A DNA stretch of 60,893 bases from Tissierellales bacterium (lineage in GTDB: Bacteria > Bacillota > Clostridia > Tissierellales > Dethiosulfatibacteraceae), in NCBI GenBank assembly GCA_016938195.1, contig JAFGVC010000107.1, positions 1 through 60,893 of the forward strand, written 5' to 3'. Positions 27,427 through 36,926 of the stretch are shown piece by piece. The notes under the pieces are model-generated. The model saw only the letters and a list, made by a program, of their open reading frames with translations. It made no database searches and was not told where the DNA came from. Each line of letters starts with the position of its first letter. The first letter of the stretch is position 1. The position numbers and the translations under genes are program-made.

Positions 27427-27455
27427 TTGACAATAAATTAACAATATGTTATTAT
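27427..27455 (+). promoter_or_regulatory. Strong sigma-A promoter of the DRTGG/hydrogenase-like operon
   Basis: TTGACA (27427-27432), 17 bases, TATTAT (27450-27455). It begins right at the cobD stop and gives the following signalling genes their own transcript. Confidence 0.75.
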
Positions 27456-27492
27456 TTTAACAAAGTAATCGTTGAAGTTAATGGAGGCAATC

Positions 27493-27858
27493 ATGAAAGT
27501 ACATGAAATAAGAGAGTTGTTGAATGCTAAGCTGTATGTCGGCGAGGGGCTTTTAGATAAAGAGATTATTGGCGCATATGCATCGGATTTGATGAGTGAT
27601 GTTTTGGCTTCAAATTATTTGGATGAAAAAGCGGTTTTAGTATCGGGTCTAAACAATGTCCAGTTGATAAGAACGGCTGAAATGTTAGATTTATCCGTAA
27701 TCGTCTTAGTCAGAGGCAAAACCCCCCATCCGGAGGTGGTCGAAATGGCAAGAGAGAACGGAATAGCACTGATGACAACAACCCTCAATATGTATAATTC
27801 TTGTGGAATATTGTATGCTCAAGGAGTGAAGGGTTTTAGCAATGAGAGAGCTGATTAA
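27493..27858 (+). CDS. DRTGG-domain protein 1
   Basis: A 121-residue protein that is almost only a DRTGG domain, a small regulatory fold found beside CBS domains and in phosphotransacetylase-like proteins. It opens with EIRELLNAKLYVGEGLLDKEI and ends in a TTTLNMYNSCGILY segment. No catalytic motif is visible. ATG 27493 with GGAGG five bases upstream is preferred over in-frame codons at 27472. It overlaps the ATPase gene by 17 bases. A paralogue lies four positions further at 29535. Such proteins are often encoded beside [FeFe]-hydrogenase genes in clostridia; a ligand-sensing or partner-binding role is inference. Confidence 0.75.
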   Translation: MKVHEIRELLNAKLYVGEGLLDKEIIGAYASDLMSDVLASNYLDEKAVLVSGLNNVQLIRTAEMLDLSVIVLVRGKTPHPEVVEMARENGIALMTTTLNMYNSCGILYAQGVKGFSNERAD

Positions 27859-28267
27859 ACGATATGTGTTTCAGGTTCAGGCAAACGATTTCGATAATGC
27901 GGGAGCTGCATCTAGCACCATAAAAAGAAACTTGAAGACAATAGCTATAAATCCAAGTATTGTAAGGAAAGTAGCGGTGGCTTCTTATGAGGCGGAGATA
28001 AATATTATTATCCATTCAAATGGCGGCGAGATGGTGCTTGAAATTTACGAAGATATGATTTCAATTAAAGCCAATGATAAAGGTCCTGGCATCCAGGATG
28101 TCGATTTAGCGATGTCAGAAGGGTTTTCTACTGCATCCAATGCGGCAAGAGAATTGGGCTTTGGAGCGGGCATGGGTCTTCCTAACATAAAAAAATATTC
28201 TGATAATTTTAAGATTACTTCAAATGAAAAAGGAACCCGACTAACGATAGATATTATGATTGAATAG
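27842..28267 (+). CDS. RsbT/RsbW-like anti-sigma-type ATP-binding protein
   Basis: A 141-residue GHKL ATPase of the serine-kinase/anti-sigma type. The N-box analogue is in VASYEAEINIIIHSNGG, G1 is NDKGPGIQDVDLAM, and a G2-like loop is GFGAGMGLPNIKKYSD. It could phosphorylate a partner protein or bind a sigma factor, but no anti-anti-sigma or sigma gene is next to it. Its place directly before the hydrogenase-like gene, with 11 bases between, suggests a sensor-output role. The function is inferred from family and context. Confidence 0.8.
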   Translation: MRELIKRYVFQVQANDFDNAGAASSTIKRNLKTIAINPSIVRKVAVASYEAEINIIIHSNGGEMVLEIYEDMISIKANDKGPGIQDVDLAMSEGFSTASNAARELGFGAGMGLPNIKKYSDNFKITSNEKGTRLTIDIMIE

Positions 28268-28278
28268 AGGTGGAAGAT

Positions 28279-29535
28279 TTGCAGAGAGCTTTTGATTTAG
28301 ACGTTGATAATTGTAAAGGTTGTACCAACTGTATGAGAAAATGCCCGACTGAAGCCATTAGAGTAGTAAATAATAAAGCAATCATCAATGACGATAAGTG
28401 TATCCACTGTGGAGAATGTATTAGAGTTTGTCCATATAATGCCTATCATGCCATTTCAGATAAGATTCAAAAGATTAACAAAGAAAAATTTTCCGTGGCT
28501 ATTCCATCTATTGCAGTTTACGGCCAATTTCATTTAGGAACTGAAGTCTGTAAGATTCATCATGCCTTATTGGCACTAGGCTTTGATTATGTCTATGATG
28601 AGACTTGGGGAGCGGAATTAGCTGCAAAAGCACTCATGAAAAAATTGAATGAAAGCAAGACGCCGAAGCCTGCCATTAATTCCAATTGCCCTGCGGTTGT
28701 TCGACTAATTAAGGTAAAATATCCTTCTTTAATGGACCATATTCTTGAAATTCAAACGCCGATGGAGATTTCAGCTATACTTGCCAGAAGAAAAATCAAA
28801 GAGATTTTTGGCTTGGAAGGCAATGAAATAGAGGTCTATTATATATCGCCTTGTCCGGCTAAATCGATTAGTGTTCATCGTCCAATTGGAACAAATCATT
28901 CAAATATCAATAAAATTATTTCTTTAAAGGAAATATACGGTGATTTAGTCAGAGAAATGAAAATCAAAAAGGAATTATGTACATCCACCCCTTCTAAAAC
29001 AGGATTAAAATGGGTTCTGTCCGGGGGACAGTGTGAAGCTGCATGTATAGAAAACAGTATCGCCGTATCCGGACTTGAAAATGTGATGAATATTCTTGAT
29101 GAAATTGAAATTGGAAAACTGGACCACATTGATTTTATTGAATTAATGTCATGTAACGAGAGCTGTGTGGGAGGTCCATTCAATTTTGAGAATCCCTTTG
29201 TAGCTAAGAATAATATAAATTACATTATTAAAAACACAGAAAATTCTCTTATTCTTAATGATGATTTGGATAAATTTGAGCAACTATATGATGAGGGGTT
29301 CTTTGACTCGGACATTAAACTAATCAGAGATCATCAGAGTCACCATACAAGTCTCAAAGAAGCAATAAAAAAACTTGAAGAAGTGGAAAAAGTGTATCAT
29401 AGCTTACCGAAGCTTGACTGTGGATCATGTGGAGCACCAACTTGCAGGGCATTAGCAGAGGATATAATTGACGGACTGAAAACAATAGACGAGTGTGTTA
29501 TATTAAAGGTAAAAAATAACGGGAGCAAATCATAA
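28279..29535 (+). CDS. [FeFe]-hydrogenase-like (HydS-type) iron-sulfur protein, putative redox/H2 sensor
   Basis: N-terminal double 4Fe-4S ferredoxin (CKGCTNCMRKCP, CIHCGECIRVCP), then an [FeFe]-hydrogenase H-domain, then a C-terminal RnfB-type FeS motif (CGSCGAPTC...C). Counting from the TTG start, H-cluster ligands map to C137 (SNCPA), C192 (SPCPAK), C292 and C296 (MSCNESC), and K195 of the L2 motif is kept. The usual proton-relay Cys of TSCCP is Asn136. Such changes mark the low-activity sensory groups (C/D). TTG 28279 is chosen over GTG 28270 because GAGGTG lies six bases before it. The next gene overlaps by one base. Confidence 0.85.
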   Translation: MQRAFDLDVDNCKGCTNCMRKCPTEAIRVVNNKAIINDDKCIHCGECIRVCPYNAYHAISDKIQKINKEKFSVAIPSIAVYGQFHLGTEVCKIHHALLALGFDYVYDETWGAELAAKALMKKLNESKTPKPAINSNCPAVVRLIKVKYPSLMDHILEIQTPMEISAILARRKIKEIFGLEGNEIEVYYISPCPAKSISVHRPIGTNHSNINKIISLKEIYGDLVREMKIKKELCTSTPSKTGLKWVLSGGQCEAACIENSIAVSGLENVMNILDEIEIGKLDHIDFIELMSCNESCVGGPFNFENPFVAKNNINYIIKNTENSLILNDDLDKFEQLYDEGFFDSDIKLIRDHQSHHTSLKEAIKKLEEVEKVYHSLPKLDCGSCGAPTCRALAEDIIDGLKTIDECVILKVKNNGSKS

Positions 29536-29864
29536 TGAAAATAAGTGAAATAAGAGAAACACTGAAGTTAACTGACGCAATAGCATGTAAATCGGATAAT
29601 GAGGTACAAGGTGTTTACATAGGCGATTTATTAAGTCTAGTTATGGCAAAAGCAAAGCCGGCAGATTTATGGCTTACGATACAGACGCATATCAATATAA
29701 TTGCTGTGGCCGATTTGATTGAAATAAGTGGTATTGTGATCTTGGAAGACATGGCCATAGATGAAGACACCTTGCAAAAGGCTGTTGAAATAGGAATTCC
29801 TATTTTCAGAACAAAATTATCGGCTTATGAAATGGCTTGCCAGCTACATGACTTAGGGCTGTGA
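29535..29864 (+). CDS. DRTGG-domain protein 2
   Basis: A 109-residue DRTGG-domain protein, a paralogue of the one at 27493. The same opening pattern KISEIRETLKLT is followed by GVYIGDLLSLVMAKA and the closing IFRTKLSAYEMACQL. Its first base is the last base of the hydrogenase-like gene's stop codon, and its own stop overlaps the PHP start, so all three are made together. No enzymatic motif is seen. Two DRTGG proteins in one operon might form a heteromer. Confidence 0.75.
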   Translation: MKISEIRETLKLTDAIACKSDNEVQGVYIGDLLSLVMAKAKPADLWLTIQTHINIIAVADLIEISGIVILEDMAIDEDTLQKAVEIGIPIFRTKLSAYEMACQLHDLGL

Positions 29865-30550
29865 TGAAGTTTTATTATGATTTTCACATTCATTCAGACC
29901 TTTCTCCTTGTGCCGATGGTGAGATGACGCCAAACAATATTGTAAAAATGGCTAAACTTAAAGAATTAAACATTATTTCCGTAACAGACCATAATGCAAT
30001 CGACAATTTTCCGGCACTAGAAAAAGTAGCTTATCAAGAAGGGTTGTATATTTTGCCTGGGATCGAAATTACTGCCAGAGAAAATGTTCACTTGCTCGCT
30101 TATTTCAGAGAATATGAAGAGGCTAAAGGTGTCGCTGATATTATATACGCGCATCTTCCAAACATAAAAAATAAACCTTCTATCTTTGGAGAACAAAATA
30201 TTTATGATGAAAACGACGTCAAAACGGACCACTTGGAGAAGTTACTGATAAATGCAACGGATTTATCGATTAAAGAAATTACATCTTTAGTCTCCGGAGC
30301 TAATGGCATTTTGATTCCGGCACATGTTGATAAAATATCTTATGGCATAATTGGGGTACTTGGATTTATACCAAAAGCCTACTCTTTTAGATATATCGAA
30401 GTGTTTAACAAAAAAATGACTGAGGATGGTCTTGAACAGTATGAAATATTGCATAACTCTGATGCACACAAGCTAGCGGATATATCTGAAGCCGAAAATT
30501 TTCTAGAGGGAAATGACATTGAGGATATAATGAAAAAGCTAGGTCTATAA
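29864..30550 (+). CDS. PHP-domain phosphoesterase
   Basis: A 228-residue PHP protein. Metal-binding motifs are FHIHSDLSPCADG near the N-terminus, VTDHNAIDNF, PGIEITARENVH and a late LHNSDAHKL. This is the full metal-site set of a small PHP hydrolase such as a histidinol-phosphatase or nucleotide phosphatase. The substrate is unknown. In this operon it could turn over a signalling molecule or phosphoprotein; that is inference. ATG 29864 overlaps the preceding TGA by one base. A weak hairpin with a T run follows the stop. Confidence 0.85.
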   Translation: MKFYYDFHIHSDLSPCADGEMTPNNIVKMAKLKELNIISVTDHNAIDNFPALEKVAYQEGLYILPGIEITARENVHLLAYFREYEEAKGVADIIYAHLPNIKNKPSIFGEQNIYDENDVKTDHLEKLLINATDLSIKEITSLVSGANGILIPAHVDKISYGIIGVLGFIPKAYSFRYIEVFNKKMTEDGLEQYEILHNSDAHKLADISEAENFLEGNDIEDIMKKLGL

Positions 30551-30645: not shown

Positions 30646-31194
30646 ATGAAAGAATTATCATTGCATATACTTGATATTGCGCAAAATTCAATTGAAGCGA
30701 ACGCTACATTAATAGAAATAAATATAAATGAAGATATCCTAAACAATAAACTGAGTATTGTGATTCATGATAATGGCCACGGCATGACAGAAATTGAAAC
30801 TGAAAGGGCAATTAATCCTTTTTATACGAGCCGATTGACCAGAAAAATTGGATTAGGTATCCCATTGCTTAAAAGCGCAGCTGAAAGATGCAAGGGTTCC
30901 TTTACCATTCAATCAACTCTTCATGTTGGGACCATAGTTAGTTGCGAATTCGAATACAATCATATCGATCGTGCACCAATCGGAAAAATTGAAGACACCT
31001 TATTGGTCTTGCTTAATAGTGCGGAAAAGGTTGATATCCATTATACGCACAAGTACAATAATCAGGTATTTCAATTTGACACGAGGGAAATAAAGAAAAT
31101 TATGGAGGGCACATCGCTTGCTAATCCTGATGTTCTTATGTGGATCAAGGAATACATCAAGGATCATATTGTTGCAATAAAAAGTAATGCTTAA
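30646..31194 (+). CDS. GHKL ATP-binding protein associated with hydrogenase/Rnf genes
   Basis: A 182-residue HATPase_c protein without any dimerisation/phosphoacceptor domain. The N-box is LHILDIAQNSIEAN, G1 is HDNGHGM and G2 is RKIGLGIPLLKSAAE. The last ~70 residues are extra and unrecognised. Similar proteins are encoded with electron-bifurcating hydrogenase genes in clostridia, where they are often called histidine-kinase-like. There is no proper ribosome site before the ATG (AAGAGGA is 24 bases away), although the N-terminus MKELSLHILDIAQNS fits the family. It lies between the PHP gene and the rnf operon. Confidence 0.75.
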   Translation: MKELSLHILDIAQNSIEANATLIEININEDILNNKLSIVIHDNGHGMTEIETERAINPFYTSRLTRKIGLGIPLLKSAAERCKGSFTIQSTLHVGTIVSCEFEYNHIDRAPIGKIEDTLLVLLNSAEKVDIHYTHKYNNQVFQFDTREIKKIMEGTSLANPDVLMWIKEYIKDHIVAIKSNA

Positions 31195-31206: not shown

Positions 31207-31236
31207 TTAACATATTTTTTAGATATATGATATAAT
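31207..31236 (+). promoter_or_regulatory. Sigma-A promoter of the rnf operon
   Basis: TTAACA (31207-31212), 18 bases, TATAAT (31231-31236). The rnf genes can thus be transcribed separately from the upstream signalling genes. Confidence 0.7.
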
Positions 31237-31305
31237 TGATTGTCTAATTCTGTATACAATAAACATAGCCAGTATGAAACTAATAAACAAGAGGTGATTT
31301 TTTTA

Positions 31306-32631
31306 ATGAGCAAGGTAGGGTTAACGTTTAAAGGCGGTATTCATCCACCGCATTTTAAAGGACAGACAGAACATAAAGCCATTGAAGCAGCTCCTGTTCC
31401 AAAGGTTGTTGTCATTCCTTTAGTTCAACACATAGGCGCTCCGTGCGAAGCATTGGTGAGTAAAGGCGATCAAGTGAAAGTAGGACAAAAAATCGGAGAA
31501 TCAAAAGGATTTGTTTCAGCGCCGATACACGCCAGCGTCTCAGGAAAGGTAGTAAAAATAGAAGCAAGACCGACACCGTCTGGGTCTAGGATTAATAGTA
31601 TTATTATTGAGACGGATGGGGAACAAACAATCGATGAAAGTGTCAAACCAAGGGGAAGTCTTGACAGCTTGTCACCGAATGATATTAAAGCCATTATAAA
31701 AGATAGTGGTATCACAGGTATGGGTGGTGCCGGATTTCCTACACATGTAAAATTGAGTCCTCCCCAGGAAAAAAACATTGATATCGTCATTATCAATGGG
31801 GCAGAATGCGAGCCTTATTTAACCTCCGACCATCGTATAATGCTTGAAATGCCTGAAAAAGTTTTGTTTGGTACAAAAGCCGTCATGAAAGTCTTGGGTG
31901 TTAAAAAAGGAATTATTGGAATCGAGGCTAATAAACCTGATGCCATTGAAACGATGAAAAAAGCGGCAGAAAATGAGCCGGAAATAGAAGTTGTACAGCT
32001 TCAGACGAAGTACCCGCAAGGTGGAGAAAAAAGTCTAATTTATGCTGTGACAAAGCGCGAAGTACCTTCCGGTGGCTTGCCGATGGACGTGGGTGCTGTG
32101 GTTCAAAATATTGGTACGGTTGTGGCAATAAGTGATGCTATCCAAATAGGAATGCCGGTCGTTGAAAGAGTGGTTACAATTACGGGAAGCGCTGTAAAAG
32201 AACCTAAGAATTTAATGGTGAAAATAGGCACAAGCTTCAGAGATGTGATTGAATATTGTGGTGGTTATTCCGAACATCCCGCAAAATTAATTAATGGCGG
32301 TCCGATGATGGGAATTGCTCAATATTCAGACGACGTGCCAGTTATTAAAGGGACTTCCGGAATACTGATTCTTAATGAGGATGATGCTAAAACGCCTGAA
32401 GCTTCAAATTGTATTAGATGTGCAAAATGTGTTGATATTTGCCCAAGTGGATTACAGCCTCTTACAATTAGCAAGTTTTCACTTTTAGGAAAATTTGAAG
32501 AAGCTGAAGCTTTTAATGCGATGGACTGCATCGAATGCGGATCTTGTTCTTTTGTATGTCCTTCGAAGAGACCATTGGTTGATTCTATCCGAATAGCAAA
32601 AAAAGAAATCTTAGCTAAAAGAAAAAAGTAG
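31306..32631 (+). CDS. rnfC: Rnf complex subunit RnfC
   Basis: RnfC of 441 residues, the peripheral subunit that exchanges electrons with NAD(H) through FMN and two 4Fe-4S clusters. It opens with the lipoyl-like KGGIHPPHFKG segment. The NADH/FMN region has GMGGAGFPTHVKL and NGAECEPYLTSDHR, and the two C-terminal clusters are CIRCAKCVDICP and CIECGSCSFVCP. The reading frame reaches 22 codons further upstream, but ATG 31306 has GAGGTGA eight bases before it and gives the normal start. It is the first gene of the rnfCDGEAB order typical of clostridia and acetogens. Confidence 0.95.
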   Translation: MSKVGLTFKGGIHPPHFKGQTEHKAIEAAPVPKVVVIPLVQHIGAPCEALVSKGDQVKVGQKIGESKGFVSAPIHASVSGKVVKIEARPTPSGSRINSIIIETDGEQTIDESVKPRGSLDSLSPNDIKAIIKDSGITGMGGAGFPTHVKLSPPQEKNIDIVIINGAECEPYLTSDHRIMLEMPEKVLFGTKAVMKVLGVKKGIIGIEANKPDAIETMKKAAENEPEIEVVQLQTKYPQGGEKSLIYAVTKREVPSGGLPMDVGAVVQNIGTVVAISDAIQIGMPVVERVVTITGSAVKEPKNLMVKIGTSFRDVIEYCGGYSEHPAKLINGGPMMGIAQYSDDVPVIKGTSGILILNEDDAKTPEASNCIRCAKCVDICPSGLQPLTISKFSLLGKFEEAEAFNAMDCIECGSCSFVCPSKRPLVDSIRIAKKEILAKRKK

Positions 32632-32650: not shown

Positions 32651-33598
32651 ATGGAAAATAAAATGATAGCATCTTCATCACCGCATATTCGTTCAACAGA
32701 TACGACGACATCGGTTATGCTTGATGTATTGATAGCACTAATACCCGCTTTAATTGCCAGCATGTATTACTTTGGTTTTAAAGCTATGCTCGTAGTAGCT
32801 TTGTCAGTGGGCTCAGCGGTAGGTACAGAAGCAGCTATTCAAAAGCTTACAAAAAAGAGAGTCACCATCAATGACTTAAGCGCAGTGGTTACAGGCTTAT
32901 TATTGGCATTTAATTTACCGGTTTCCGTTCCTTGGTGGATACCAGTCATAGGTTCGGCTGTGGCTATAGCCATTGGCAAACAGGTTTTTGGAGGCCTAGG
33001 CAATAACTTTATTAACCCCGCTTTAGCCGGACGTGCTTTTTTAGTAGCTTCATGGCCGGTTGAAATGACCTTCTGGACGACTCCGGGTGCACTTACTGAT
33101 ACAATTGCCGCGGCAACGCCATTGGCTATGCTGAAGACATCTTCTCCAGCTTTGTCTCCATTATCCGATGTTTTTTTAGGTAGAATACCGGGCTGTTTAG
33201 GTGAGACTTCAGCTATTCTTTTGCTCTTAGGTGGCGCATATTTGATTTATAAAAAAGTAATTTCTTGGCGGATTCCGGGAACTTATATCGCAACGGTAGC
33301 TATCATAGCCCTAATAACCAACGGATTTGACTTTACGGGGATGGCTTACCATGTTTTTGGAGGAGGATTGATGATTGGCGCTATTTTTATGGCAACTGAT
33401 TATTCTTCTAGCCCAGTGACACCTAAAGGTAAAATCATTTTTGGCATAGGCGCCGGAGTTCTGACTATGCTGATTAGATTATATAGTAGCTCCGCTGAAG
33501 GGGTTTCATATTCCATATTATTTATGAATGTAGCAACACCGTTAATTGAAAAATATACCGCTCCAAGAGTATTTGGTACTGGGGGTGTAAAAAAATGA
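32651..33598 (+). CDS. rnfD: Rnf complex subunit RnfD
   Basis: A 315-residue integral membrane subunit with eight to ten hydrophobic segments. The N-terminal SSSPHIRS motif and the covalent-FMN region around AAATPLA (the conserved Thr of the S-G-A-T type motif) fit RnfD/NqrB. The GNNFINPALAGRAFL segment is also diagnostic. It takes part in sodium or proton translocation coupled to ferredoxin:NAD+ electron flow. It overlaps the rnfG start by four bases. Confidence 0.94.
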   Translation: MENKMIASSSPHIRSTDTTTSVMLDVLIALIPALIASMYYFGFKAMLVVALSVGSAVGTEAAIQKLTKKRVTINDLSAVVTGLLLAFNLPVSVPWWIPVIGSAVAIAIGKQVFGGLGNNFINPALAGRAFLVASWPVEMTFWTTPGALTDTIAAATPLAMLKTSSPALSPLSDVFLGRIPGCLGETSAILLLLGGAYLIYKKVISWRIPGTYIATVAIIALITNGFDFTGMAYHVFGGGLMIGAIFMATDYSSSPVTPKGKIIFGIGAGVLTMLIRLYSSSAEGVSYSILFMNVATPLIEKYTAPRVFGTGGVKK

Positions 33599-34698
33599 AA
33601 AATGAAATTGTTCGATTAGGAATAATACTCTTTTTAATTACAGCTATAGCTGCAGGCATACTAGCTGTATCAAATGATATTACAGCCGAGATTATTGTAA
33701 AGACCGAAGAGGAAGCGAGTTCAGGACCAGAGGTAGCCGGAGCTGTGATTCCCGGAGCAGTGAAATTTGAAGCGTTAGACGCTGAAATTATTTCGAAAAT
33801 TGCGGCAGCCAACGAAAAATTTGTAGATGCTAAAATTGTGCTTGATTCTGCTGGAAAGCAGCTAGGATATGCTATCAGAACATTGAGCGTAGTGCCTGGG
33901 TACGGCGGAGATATGGAATTGTATGTGGGTCTGTCTATGGATGGCAAGCTTGAAGGAATCAAGGTTTTAGCGCTCCAAGAAACACCTGGTTTAGGAACTA
34001 ATGTTGAAAAGAAATCATTCCAGGACCAATTTGTTGGAAAGACGTCAGATATGGTATTGCAAGTGGTAAAAGTTCCTTCATCCAATGAGAATGAAATCAA
34101 TGCACTTGCAGGCGCTACTTTTTCAACTCTTTCATTTACAAGTGCTGTCAATAATGCCATGTCTATATACGAAAACTTTATAAAGCAAGGATCAGATGCT
34201 TCTGAAATCGAAGCTGAAAAGGAATTAACTGAAGCCGAAATGGCGGCACTATTGGTGCCGAATGGTTTTAGCTTTGAAGCGGTGGATAGTGCTTTGCTTG
34301 AAACCATAAAATTGACAAACGAGAAATTTATAAATCTTCAAATGGTTAAAGATGAAGCTGGGAATCACGTAGGATATGCGATTTCTACACTGAGCCAATC
34401 AAAAGGCTATAATGGAGATATGGAAATTACCGTTGGCATTGACTTATCTGATTTGATTACCGGAATAATGGTTGATAAAACAAATGAAACCCCGGGGTTA
34501 GGGACGAAAGTTGGAGAAAAGGAATTTAAGGGTCAATTTATTGGAAAAGAGTCGTCTAATCAATTTAAGATTGTATTAAACAATGCATTTTCTGATGAAG
34601 AAATTGACACGGTTGCAGGAGCGACAATGTCATCTAATTCTTTTACGAGTGCTGTCAACAATGCCTTGTCAATCTATGCTGAATTTATAAAAAAATAA
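33595..34698 (+). CDS. rnfG: Rnf complex subunit RnfG with two tandem FMN-binding domains
   Basis: A 367-residue protein, almost twice the usual ~200 residues. One N-terminal membrane helix is followed by two copies of the FMN-binding domain. Copy 1 ends in AGATFSTLSFTSAVNNAM and copy 2 in AGATMSSNSFTSAVNNAL. In both, the Thr of the GAT motif is the expected site of covalent FMN attachment. Shared features in each copy include the ETPGLGT segment and GY(G/N)GDME. A charged linker (~residues 200-225) joins the copies. The gene sits in the normal rnfG position; no flavin transferase gene (apbE) is nearby. It would pass electrons on the outer face. Confidence 0.92.
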   Translation: MKNEIVRLGIILFLITAIAAGILAVSNDITAEIIVKTEEEASSGPEVAGAVIPGAVKFEALDAEIISKIAAANEKFVDAKIVLDSAGKQLGYAIRTLSVVPGYGGDMELYVGLSMDGKLEGIKVLALQETPGLGTNVEKKSFQDQFVGKTSDMVLQVVKVPSSNENEINALAGATFSTLSFTSAVNNAMSIYENFIKQGSDASEIEAEKELTEAEMAALLVPNGFSFEAVDSALLETIKLTNEKFINLQMVKDEAGNHVGYAISTLSQSKGYNGDMEITVGIDLSDLITGIMVDKTNETPGLGTKVGEKEFKGQFIGKESSNQFKIVLNNAFSDEEIDTVAGATMSSNSFTSAVNNALSIYAEFIKK

Positions 34699-34710: not shown

Positions 34711-35307
34711 ATGGATTATTTAAAAATATTTAAAAACGGTTTAGTGGATGAAAACCCTACCTTTGCTCAATTGCTAGGCATGTGTCCGACTCTTGCCGTT
34801 ACGACTTCGGCAATTAATGGAATGGGCATGGGTCTTGCAACAACAACGGTTTTAATTGGGTCAAATCTTGCAATATCTTTATTGAGAAAGGTAATACCTG
34901 ATAAAATTAGGATTCCGGCTTTTGTGGTTGTCATTGCAACCTTTGTTACAATCATTGATATGTTTATGCATGCCTATGCCTTTGATTTGTACAAATCATT
35001 GGGTTTGTTTATCCCTCTAATAGTTGTAAACTGTTTGATTTTGGGAAGGGCGGAGGCCTATGCTTCTAAAAATTCTATTGTTCCTTCCATTGTGGATGCA
35101 GTCGGTATGGGTTTGGGTTTCACGATTGCTTTGACTGTTCTGGGTGCGATTCGAGAAATTTTGGGAGCAGGAAGCATTTTTGGATTCAATATGCTGGGTG
35201 AAGCTTTTAAACCGGTATTGGTTATGATATTACCGCCGGGAGCGTTTCTTGCTTTGGGACTGTTGATCGGACTGGTCAATGTGATTTCCAAAAAGAAACC
35301 AGCCTAA
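34711..35307 (+). CDS. rnfE: Rnf complex subunit RnfE
   Basis: A 198-residue membrane protein with six hydrophobic segments, homologous to RnfA and Nqr[21 protein letters not shown] at the N-terminus and the cysteine in this segment are typical; with RnfA it holds an intramembrane iron-sulfur site in solved relatives. AAGGAGGGTGA precedes the ATG. It is followed by rnfA after 15 bases. Confidence 0.94.
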
Positions 35308-35322
35308 ATGGGAGGTAAATAG

Positions 35323-35898
35323 ATGGGATTGTTTAGTATATTTATGGGCGCGGCACTAGTTAACAATTATGTGCTGTCAAAATTTTTAGGAATCTGTCCT
35401 TTTTTGGGAGTTTCTAAAAAAGTAGACACTTCATTGGGTATGGGCATAGCGGTAACTTTTGTTATGACGCTAGCCTCAATCATTACATATCTTGTACAAG
35501 TTGCGGTTCTCGAACGATTGGGACTGCAATATCTTCAGACCATAGCCTTTATTTTGGTCATAGCCGCTTTAGTTCAGTTTGTAGAAATGTTTTTAAAGAA
35601 GTCAAGTCCTTCGTTATATGAAGCGCTAGGTGTTTATCTTCCTTTGATTACAACGAATTGTGCGGTTTTAGGTTTAGCGATTATCAATATTCAGGAAGGC
35701 TATAATCTTCTTGAAACCATTGTGAATTCTTTAGGAGCAGCCATAGGATTTACAGTAGCCATTGTGCTGTTTGCAGGAATTAGAGAAAGACTCGAAACAG
35801 CAGATGTACCTGAAGCTTTAAAAGGATTTCCGATAGCTCTGATAACCGCGGGTTTGATGTCTATTGCCTTTTTAGGTTTTTCAGGTTTGTCATTATAG
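35323..35898 (+). CDS. rnfA: Rnf complex subunit RnfA
   Basis: A 191-residue membrane protein with six hydrophobic segments, homologous to RnfE with inverted topology. The N-terminal [19 protein letters not shown] contains the conserved Cys, and the TTNCAVLG segment carries the second. Together with RnfE it forms the central cation and electron path of the Rnf complex. A GGGAGG ribosome site lies before the ATG. The next gene, rnfB, starts 12 bases on. Confidence 0.95.
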
Positions 35899-35910: not shown

Positions 35911-36882
35911 ATGAATGTATTAAAAGCAGTGGGAGCACTCGGAGCATTGGGGCTTGCTTTTGGAGTGATTTTGGCTTTCGCGTCAAAAGTGTTTCATGTA
36001 GTGGTTGATCCGAAAATTACACAAGTAAGAGAAGCATTGCCGGGAGCCAATTGCGGTGCATGTGGTCTACCGGGATGTGACGCATTAGCCAAAGCGATTG
36101 CAGCAGGAGACGCACCAATCACAGCCTGTCCGGTAGGTGGTGCATCAACGGTCGAGGCTATCAGCAAAATTATGGGTATTGAGGCATACGCCGGTGAAAA
36201 AATGGTGGCGCGTGTTTTATGTAAAGGAAATTATGACAGAACCAATAAAAAATATATTTATCAAGGGATTATGGATTGTAAGGCTTCGGCAATGATTCAA
36301 GGCGGAGATAAAGCTTGTGAATATGGCTGTTTGGGAAATGGTTCTTGTCAGGCTGTTTGTCCATTTGATGCAATTCATGTGGTGAATGGTGTTGCAGTTG
36401 TTGACCCGGAAAAATGTACAGCTTGCGGAAAATGCATTGTGGAATGTCCGAAACATATTATCGAGCTCGTTCCTTATAAGCAACAGGTTGTTGTAGATTG
36501 TTCAAATCATTTATTTGGAAAAGCGGTCAAGGATGATTGTAAGGTGGGTTGCATAGGATGCAAAATATGCGAAAAAGCATGCCCGTTCGATGCTATCCAC
36601 GTTGTAGATAATATTGCCAGGATTGATTATGAAAAATGTACAAACTGCATGGTATGTGCTGAAAAATGCCCTACTAAGGCCATTACTGCATTACTTGAAG
36701 ATAGAAAAAAAGCTTATATTTTACCGGATAAATGTATTGGTTGCACGATTTGTGCAAAGAATTGTCCAGTTCAGTGTATATCCGGAGAGCTTAAGCAATT
36801 ACATGTAGTTGACGAAGAACATTGTATCGGATGCGGTGTCTGCTATGAAAAGTGCCCTAAGGATGCCATTATTATGAAATAG
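35911..36882 (+). CDS. rnfB: Rnf complex subunit RnfB, polyferredoxin
   Basis: A 323-residue ferredoxin-accepting subunit. It has an N-terminal membrane helix (residues ~1-28), then the RnfB FeS motif CGACGLPGC...C, then six further four-cysteine motifs arranged as three ferredoxin-like pairs (for example CTACGKCIVECP, CIGCKICEKACP, CTNCMVCAEKCP, CIGCTICAKNCP, CIGCGVCYEKCP). By motif count it could carry seven 4Fe-4S clusters. It takes electrons from reduced ferredoxin. It is the last rnf gene and is followed by a strong terminator. Confidence 0.94.
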   Translation: MNVLKAVGALGALGLAFGVILAFASKVFHVVVDPKITQVREALPGANCGACGLPGCDALAKAIAAGDAPITACPVGGASTVEAISKIMGIEAYAGEKMVARVLCKGNYDRTNKKYIYQGIMDCKASAMIQGGDKACEYGCLGNGSCQAVCPFDAIHVVNGVAVVDPEKCTACGKCIVECPKHIIELVPYKQQVVVDCSNHLFGKAVKDDCKVGCIGCKICEKACPFDAIHVVDNIARIDYEKCTNCMVCAEKCPTKAITALLEDRKKAYILPDKCIGCTICAKNCPVQCISGELKQLHVVDEEHCIGCGVCYEKCPKDAIIMK

Positions 36883-36893
36883 AAAGATAGGTT

Positions 36894-36926
36894 AACCGCC
36901 TTCCAAAATTAGGAAGGTGGTTTTTT
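36894..36926 (+). terminator. Terminator of the rnf operon
   Basis: AACCGCCTTCC (36894-36904) pairs with GGAAGGTGGTT (36912-36922), one G-U-type mismatch, followed by a T run. Confidence 0.85.

Follow-up and report, generated by a model that had tools for sequence, protein, structure and literature searches.

Glutamine at the proton-relay position of group D [FeFe]-hydrogenase homologs encoded beside Rnf operons: a putative low-turnover sensing protein

A subset of group D [FeFe]-hydrogenase homologs is marked by two features: Gln replaces Glu at the ADT-facing proton-relay position, and the genes are linked to those of Rnf (or Nqr-like) pumps. One such protein, hereafter HydS, is encoded in the window, a 60,893-nucleotide stretch from a Tissierellales bacterium (assembly GCA_016938195.1, contig JAFGVC010000107.1), within a six-gene cassette directly upstream of rnfCDGEAB. 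On balance, we favor the view that HydS serves as the low-turnover or non-catalytic sensing part of the cassette, which would adjust Rnf expression or activity. Rnf is a main energy-conserving complex of anaerobes and its control is poorly understood; for the sensory hydrogenases of group D, neither a ligand nor an output is known. A natural Glu-to-Gln change at a residue essential in TamHydS, the group D protein of Thermoanaerobacter mathranii, and tied to Rnf, makes it possible to ask directly whether H2 sensing in group D depends on turnover. Genome G018, which encodes both an Rnf-linked copy (Met299/Gln252) and an unlinked copy (Ser299/Glu252), provides a ready comparison.

Domain Architecture and Placement in Group D

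The hydS open reading frame is intact, opens with GTG, and encodes 421 amino acids (Table 1). An earlier sequence-only reading had identified the correct frame, with a start at 28279 that lies three codons inside it. The same reading described an H-domain preceded by a two-cluster ferredoxin domain and followed by a PF04060-type segment, and all of these pass their Pfam cut-offs. The eight Cys of the ferredoxin domain are invariant in Glu-type and Gln-type homologs alike, and the C-terminal motif reads C384-x2-C387-x4-C392-x16-C409. An AlphaFold2 model built from a 33-sequence alignment (mean pLDDT 88.4, pTM 0.87) was placed on [FeFe]-hydrogenases by Foldseek and VIA-align, with a Z score of 32.7 for CbA5H and of 30.9 for CpI (4xdc; 353 residues, rmsd 2.8), the latter comparison barely reaching past residue 358. 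These domain and fold matches are far beyond chance.

The published description of group D (M2e) comprises two N-terminal clusters, an H-domain that lacks Cys299, a Cx2Cx4Cx16C motif at the C terminus (reported for group C as well), and the absence of a PAS domain (PMC8163306). HydS has exactly this order of domains, from 2x[4Fe-4S] through the H-domain to Cx2Cx4Cx16C, with no PAS domain. Alignment of the L1, L2, and L3 motifs confirmed that the proton-relay Cys is missing, as noticed earlier under the number Asn136 (Asn139 in full numbering), and that the Met353 position, where group D has Ser or Thr, is occupied by Ser193. All four Cys ligands of the H-cluster are present and are invariant in 193/193 homologs: Cys140 (CpI C300) in L1, which reads NSNCP, C195 in L2, and C295 and C299 in L3, the last being the equivalent of the bridging cysteine CpI C503. 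Membership of groups A or B was rejected, as scores against NCBIfam models for groups A, A6, and B1 fell far under their cut-offs (TIGR04105, 134 bits against 450; NF040763, 100 against 765; TIGR02512, 99 against 406). In a 59-row IQ-TREE tree, group C split off with a support of 100, and HydS fell into one clade with L171, a Thermoanaerobacter wiegelii homolog, with a support of 99. L171 contains SGGEAFGTFT, as expected of TamHydS from the primers used for its mutagenesis, and matches published TamHydS numbering at A137, S191, S249, E252, D265, E289, L291, C379, E392, D393, and C404; thus, residues can be transferred from TamHydS to HydS.

On these sequence features, we assign the window protein to group D (M2e), with a deviation at Glu252. 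The assignment stands despite Gln254 because Glu252 is a conserved trait of the studied members rather than part of the published definition. The PF04060 fusion and the loss of Cys299 were discarded as novelties, both being hallmarks of group D; the combination is the normal architecture of the group rather than a peculiarity of this gene. What is surprising is that a Gln-type, Rnf-linked subset exists. TamHydS and HydS share two N-terminal clusters, the absence of Cys299, Ser for Met353, Cx2Cx4Cx16C, conserved E289, E392, and D393, and HATPase gene neighbors. They differ in that TamHydS has Ala299 and Glu252, whereas HydS has Asn299, Gln252, and changed residues at CpI 230/231, and in that the TamHydS gene precedes bifurcating hydABC, as published, whereas hydS precedes Rnf. 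TmHydS of Thermotoga maritima (group C/M2f) likewise shares the N-terminal clusters, the missing Cys299, and a C-terminal FeS motif, but carries a fused PAS domain and sits on a separate branch of the tree. RnfB has the same Pfam domain with a similar Cys motif, which in HydS lies C-terminal to the H-domain.

Table 1. Features of the hydS cassette and the rnf operon (window positions)
Feature	Positions	Strand	Basis
Promoter-like site TTGACA-17-TATTAT, TG-extended, before cassette	27427..27455	+	11/12 consensus match
DRTGG-domain protein 1	27472..27858	+	PF07085, 28.2 bits, cut-off 25.2
HATPase, SpoIIAB/anti-sigma-like	27842..28267	+	PF13581 and PF02518 over cut-off
HydS-like group D [FeFe]-hydrogenase homolog, Gln-type	28270..29535	+	ORF, Pfam, alignment, AlphaFold2 model
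N-terminal two-[4Fe-4S] ferredoxin domain, residues 11-59	28300..28446	+	PF13237/PF00037
H-domain, residues 90-303	28537..29178	+	PF02906, 114 bits, cut-off passed
Asn139 codon (CpI Cys299/Tam Ala137 position)	28684..28686	+	Alignment, TamHydS numbering via L171
Gln254 codon (Tam Glu252/CpI Val423 position)	29029..29031	+	LSGGQ vs TamHydS SGGEAFGTFT
C-terminal PF04060 FeS motif, residues 379-410	29404..29499	+	47 bits vs cut-off 23
DRTGG-like protein 2	29535..29864	+	27% identity to DRTGG protein 1, conserved position
PHP-domain phosphoesterase-like protein	29861..30550	+	PF02811, 40 bits
Second HATPase	30646..31194	+	PF02518, 44 bits
Promoter-like site TTAACA-18-TATAAT before rnfC	31207..31236	+	11/12 consensus match
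rnfC, likely start ATG 31306	31240..32631	+	TIGR01945, 579 bits, cut-off 246
rnfD	32651..33598	+	Position, 57-81% identity to rnfD of relatives
rnfG, apparent internal duplication	33595..34698	+	Position, similarity
rnfE	34711..35307	+	Comparison with relatives' loci
rnfA	35323..35898	+	Comparison with relatives' loci
rnfB with own PF04060 domain	35911..36882	+	TIGR01944, 167 bits (over cut-off); PF04060, 50 bits
Terminator-like hairpin after rnfB	36894..36922	+	11-pair stem, T tail

The Cassette and Its Linkage to Rnf

The cassette runs DRTGG, HATPase, HydS, DRTGG, PHP, HATPase, with its first five genes overlapping or only a few bases apart. DRTGG protein 1, whose gene is a conserved neighbor in most group D loci, likely starts at ATG 27493, ahead of which stands a GGAGG-like site. 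Its counterpart downstream of hydS returned no Pfam match and resembles it at E 9e-9 (single comparison). The best NCBIfam match of the SpoIIAB-like HATPase is TIGR01925, anti-sigma F factor, at 45 bits and thus under the cut-off of 135; the second HATPase is of a type that also occurs in hydABC operons of relatives. The Rnf operon that follows is complete, rnfC and rnfB scoring over NCBIfam cut-offs and rnfD, G, E, and A being recognized by gene order. Of the promoter-like sites in the region, the two with the best matches stand immediately ahead of the cassette and of rnfC; the total number of such sites is near the shuffled mean, no more than chance, and the site before rnfC is weak evidence either way on a link between cassette and Rnf.

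The arrangement recurs widely. In 29/33 of the homolog loci first examined, the cassette is followed by rnf genes; of the remaining four loci, two are truncated by contig ends. Altogether, 34 loci from about 33 genomes (two loci come from one genome) and many families reach rnfC without hydA or hydB, 28 of them with an identical nine-gene order. Elsewhere in group D, the genes behind the cassette are mostly nuoE-HATPase-ferredoxin-hydB-hydA. A further arrangement, in which the cassette precedes nuoE-HATPase-ferredoxin-hydB without hydA and then rnf, was seen in L194, L208, L227, L253, L255, L275, L290, and L294; here, the gene order suggests that the hydB-type flavoprotein is apparently paired with Rnf in place of a hydrogenase. 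Two other loci, L302 (G320) and L315 (G262), place a Gln-type hydS homolog beside an NqrBCDEF-like operon with no DRTGG/HATPase/PHP cassette, and neither rnfC nor rnfB was recognized in them. In Vallitalea guaymasensis L81, a putative sensory hydrogenase and a histidine kinase have been reported beside rnf, as in the window, a likeness by description rather than by sequence from a report on one genome with no residue analysis (PMC6163223). The Gln signature, the relaxed pocket described below, and the breadth of the Rnf linkage were not found in the searchable literature.

Replacement of the Proton-Relay Glutamate

The missing Cys had been taken on its own to argue for very low catalytic rates. 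This argument fails: TamHydS, with Ala137 at that position, also lacks Cys299 and still turns over H2 via Glu252 (PMC10407848). A stronger reason to expect low turnover, beyond the loss of Cys, is Gln254 at the Glu252 position. In TamHydS, the changes E252D and E252V leave less than 0.01% of the H2 oxidation activity and 10-20% of the evolution activity, and Glu252 has been reported to be highly conserved in group D (PMC10407848). Among 193 group D homologs, 57 have Gln at this position. HydS lacks both protonatable residues that may stand by the ADT amine, Cys299 and Glu252, with Asn139 and Gln254 in their places. Position 299, usually Ala in group D, is Ala in 123/134 Glu-type proteins and otherwise Ser, and in Gln-type proteins is Leu, Asn, His, Tyr, Phe, Met, Ser, Thr, or Asp. 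Gln together with a water might still relay protons in these proteins.

Across the 193 loci, residue 252 and operon type go together. It is Glu in 72, Gln in 2, and Ala in 2 of the operons with hydA (n = 76), and Gln in 41 and Glu in 1 of those reaching Rnf without hydA (n = 42). The exceptions are L277 and L188 (Rnf-linked, Ala/Glu) and L281 and L288 (hydA present, Gln). Fisher's test gives p = 9e-28, a value that ignores kinship and is not to be taken literally. The tree requires about 2 changes for Glu/Gln and 4 for operon type, which leaves no more than 2-3 independent pairs; the association thus has almost no independent replicates, and we rejected it, at about two such pairs, as statistical proof that Gln tracks Rnf linkage. 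In the outgroup-rooted IQ-TREE tree, whose deep branches are poorly resolved, the earliest branches carry Glu, and the Gln types all fall within a single supported clade, together with some Glu types. Because Glu occupies the earliest branches and the Gln types are nested in one clade, Gln is probably the derived state; it perhaps arose more than once.

Relaxation extends beyond residue 252. In Glu-type proteins, 36 H-domain positions show conservation of 97% or higher; 10 of these fall below 85% in the Gln type, including CpI A230, P231, P354, K358, and V423 (mapped on the CpI sequence) and the T351 position, which has been assigned to the environment of the diiron site (PMC12138974). All 193 homologs share E289 and the C-terminal cysteines without exception, like the H-cluster cysteines, and the CpI K358 equivalent is still K or R in 56/57 Gln-type proteins. 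The relaxed positions comprise 5/7 non-Cys [2Fe] contacts vs 5/29 others (Fisher p = 0.01), where the positions counted as [2Fe] contacts follow in part from general background on CpI. A literature search on the roles of CpI K358, P354, and A230 gave nothing decisive. Invariant cluster cysteines and relaxed [2Fe]-facing positions together indicate that selection maintains cluster binding in HydS, while the environment of the catalytic iron pair has changed.

Maturases and Accompanying Hydrogenases

None of hydE, hydF, and hydG scored over cut-off in the window's assembly, a 97% complete draft in which a gap is possible. The sequence-only reading had named their absence as grounds for giving up its proposal; the outcome is ambiguous, as the genome (G000) also encodes two canonical group A hydrogenases with intact motifs. 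The three genes were not found in 5/7 same-family genomes, and all three were under cut-off in 18/56 related genomes carrying PF02906 genes. Genomes without them include G000, G001, G003, G004, G006, G007, G020, G025, G034, G038, G043, G044, and G049, among others; the G043 assembly consists of one contig and carries four PF02906 genes. HydG is present in 14 of the 16 single-contig class members with HydS that were tested, and G121 and G369 yielded neither HydG nor HydF. In G057 (C5:131944-134201; 97% complete, 20 contigs), hydE and hydF are adjacent and no hydG was found.

The absence of maturases is not confined to carriers of the Gln type, and those group A hydrogenases that were checked in genomes lacking maturases retain canonical motifs. 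It was therefore rejected as proof of a [2Fe]-free protein, and may reflect assembly gaps or an unrecognized maturation route. HydG could not be found in several acetogens (PMC9431212); a search of the literature on genomes lacking HydEFG otherwise gave nothing decisive.

Proposed Function and Alternatives

In the mechanism that we favor, the input would be the redox state of ferredoxin, or H2 or CO binding at the H-domain, and HydS would turn over little or no H2. A conformational change in HydS would be passed to its HATPase, DRTGG, and PHP partners, and the partner-switch-like cassette (two DRTGG proteins, two HATPases, a PHP protein, and HydS) would act on Rnf. We infer reduced or absent turnover because TamHydS loses H2 oxidation when E252 is changed and HydS has Gln254; the link between HydS and Rnf is drawn from gene order. 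A signaling role rather than bulk H2 turnover had been suggested before and agrees both with the putatively sensory nature of group D (PMC8163306) and with the regulatory cassette. The accompanying idea that the C-terminal cluster acts as electron relay or output finds no support in the one experiment on a relative, TamHydS, in which this cluster is not reduced by H2 (PMC13104023).

HydS could instead be an ordinary group D H2 sensor with a complete H-cluster and slow H2 oxidation, as in TamHydS; Gln would then be a tolerated change, and ambient H2 would set Rnf through the cassette. Its architecture and its invariant cluster ligands match those of TamHydS, and the V. guaymasensis genome authors proposed, on the basis of a single adjacency of this kind, that H2 controls Rnf (PMC6163223). 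We nevertheless regard this as rather unlikely, since even E252D abolishes nearly all H2 oxidation in TamHydS (PMC10407848), several further [2Fe]-facing residues are relaxed, and no maturases were found in the window genome. The concentration of that relaxation at [2Fe]-facing positions, beside invariant [4Fe-4S]H cysteines, and the retention of HydS in genomes without detectable hydE/F/G would also suit an H-domain devoid of the [2Fe] subsite, whose [4Fe-4S] clusters alone would form a redox switch like eukaryotic Nar1-type proteins. Such a protein appears distinctly unlikely: the bridging cysteine (window C299) and a basic residue at K358 are kept, and the survival of group A hydrogenases in maturase-less genomes makes the absence unspecific to the Gln type.

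HydS might also be an accessory of Rnf that carries electrons, its ferredoxin and PF04060 domains passing them between a donor and RnfB/RnfC. The PF04060 domain common to HydS and RnfB, the tight rnf linkage, and the Gln-type genes beside Nqr-like operons without the cassette (L302, L315) fit this idea. We consider it very improbable, as the cassette likewise stands before soluble hydABC where Rnf is absent, the C-terminal cluster of TamHydS does not accept electrons from H2, and, to our knowledge, known Rnf complexes have no such subunit.

A broader proposal, possible though doubtful, is that a widespread class of [FeFe]-hydrogenase homologs gave up H2 catalysis, and possibly the [2Fe] subsite, in becoming a redox switch for Rnf or Nqr in anaerobes.

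Two observations concern individual genes. The HydS homolog match at L014 (G007:C374:7336-8577) contains one TAG stop. The RnfG of the window is 367 amino acids long and consists of two similar halves, whereas most relatives have an RnfG of about 200 amino acids; that of L123 is similarly long.
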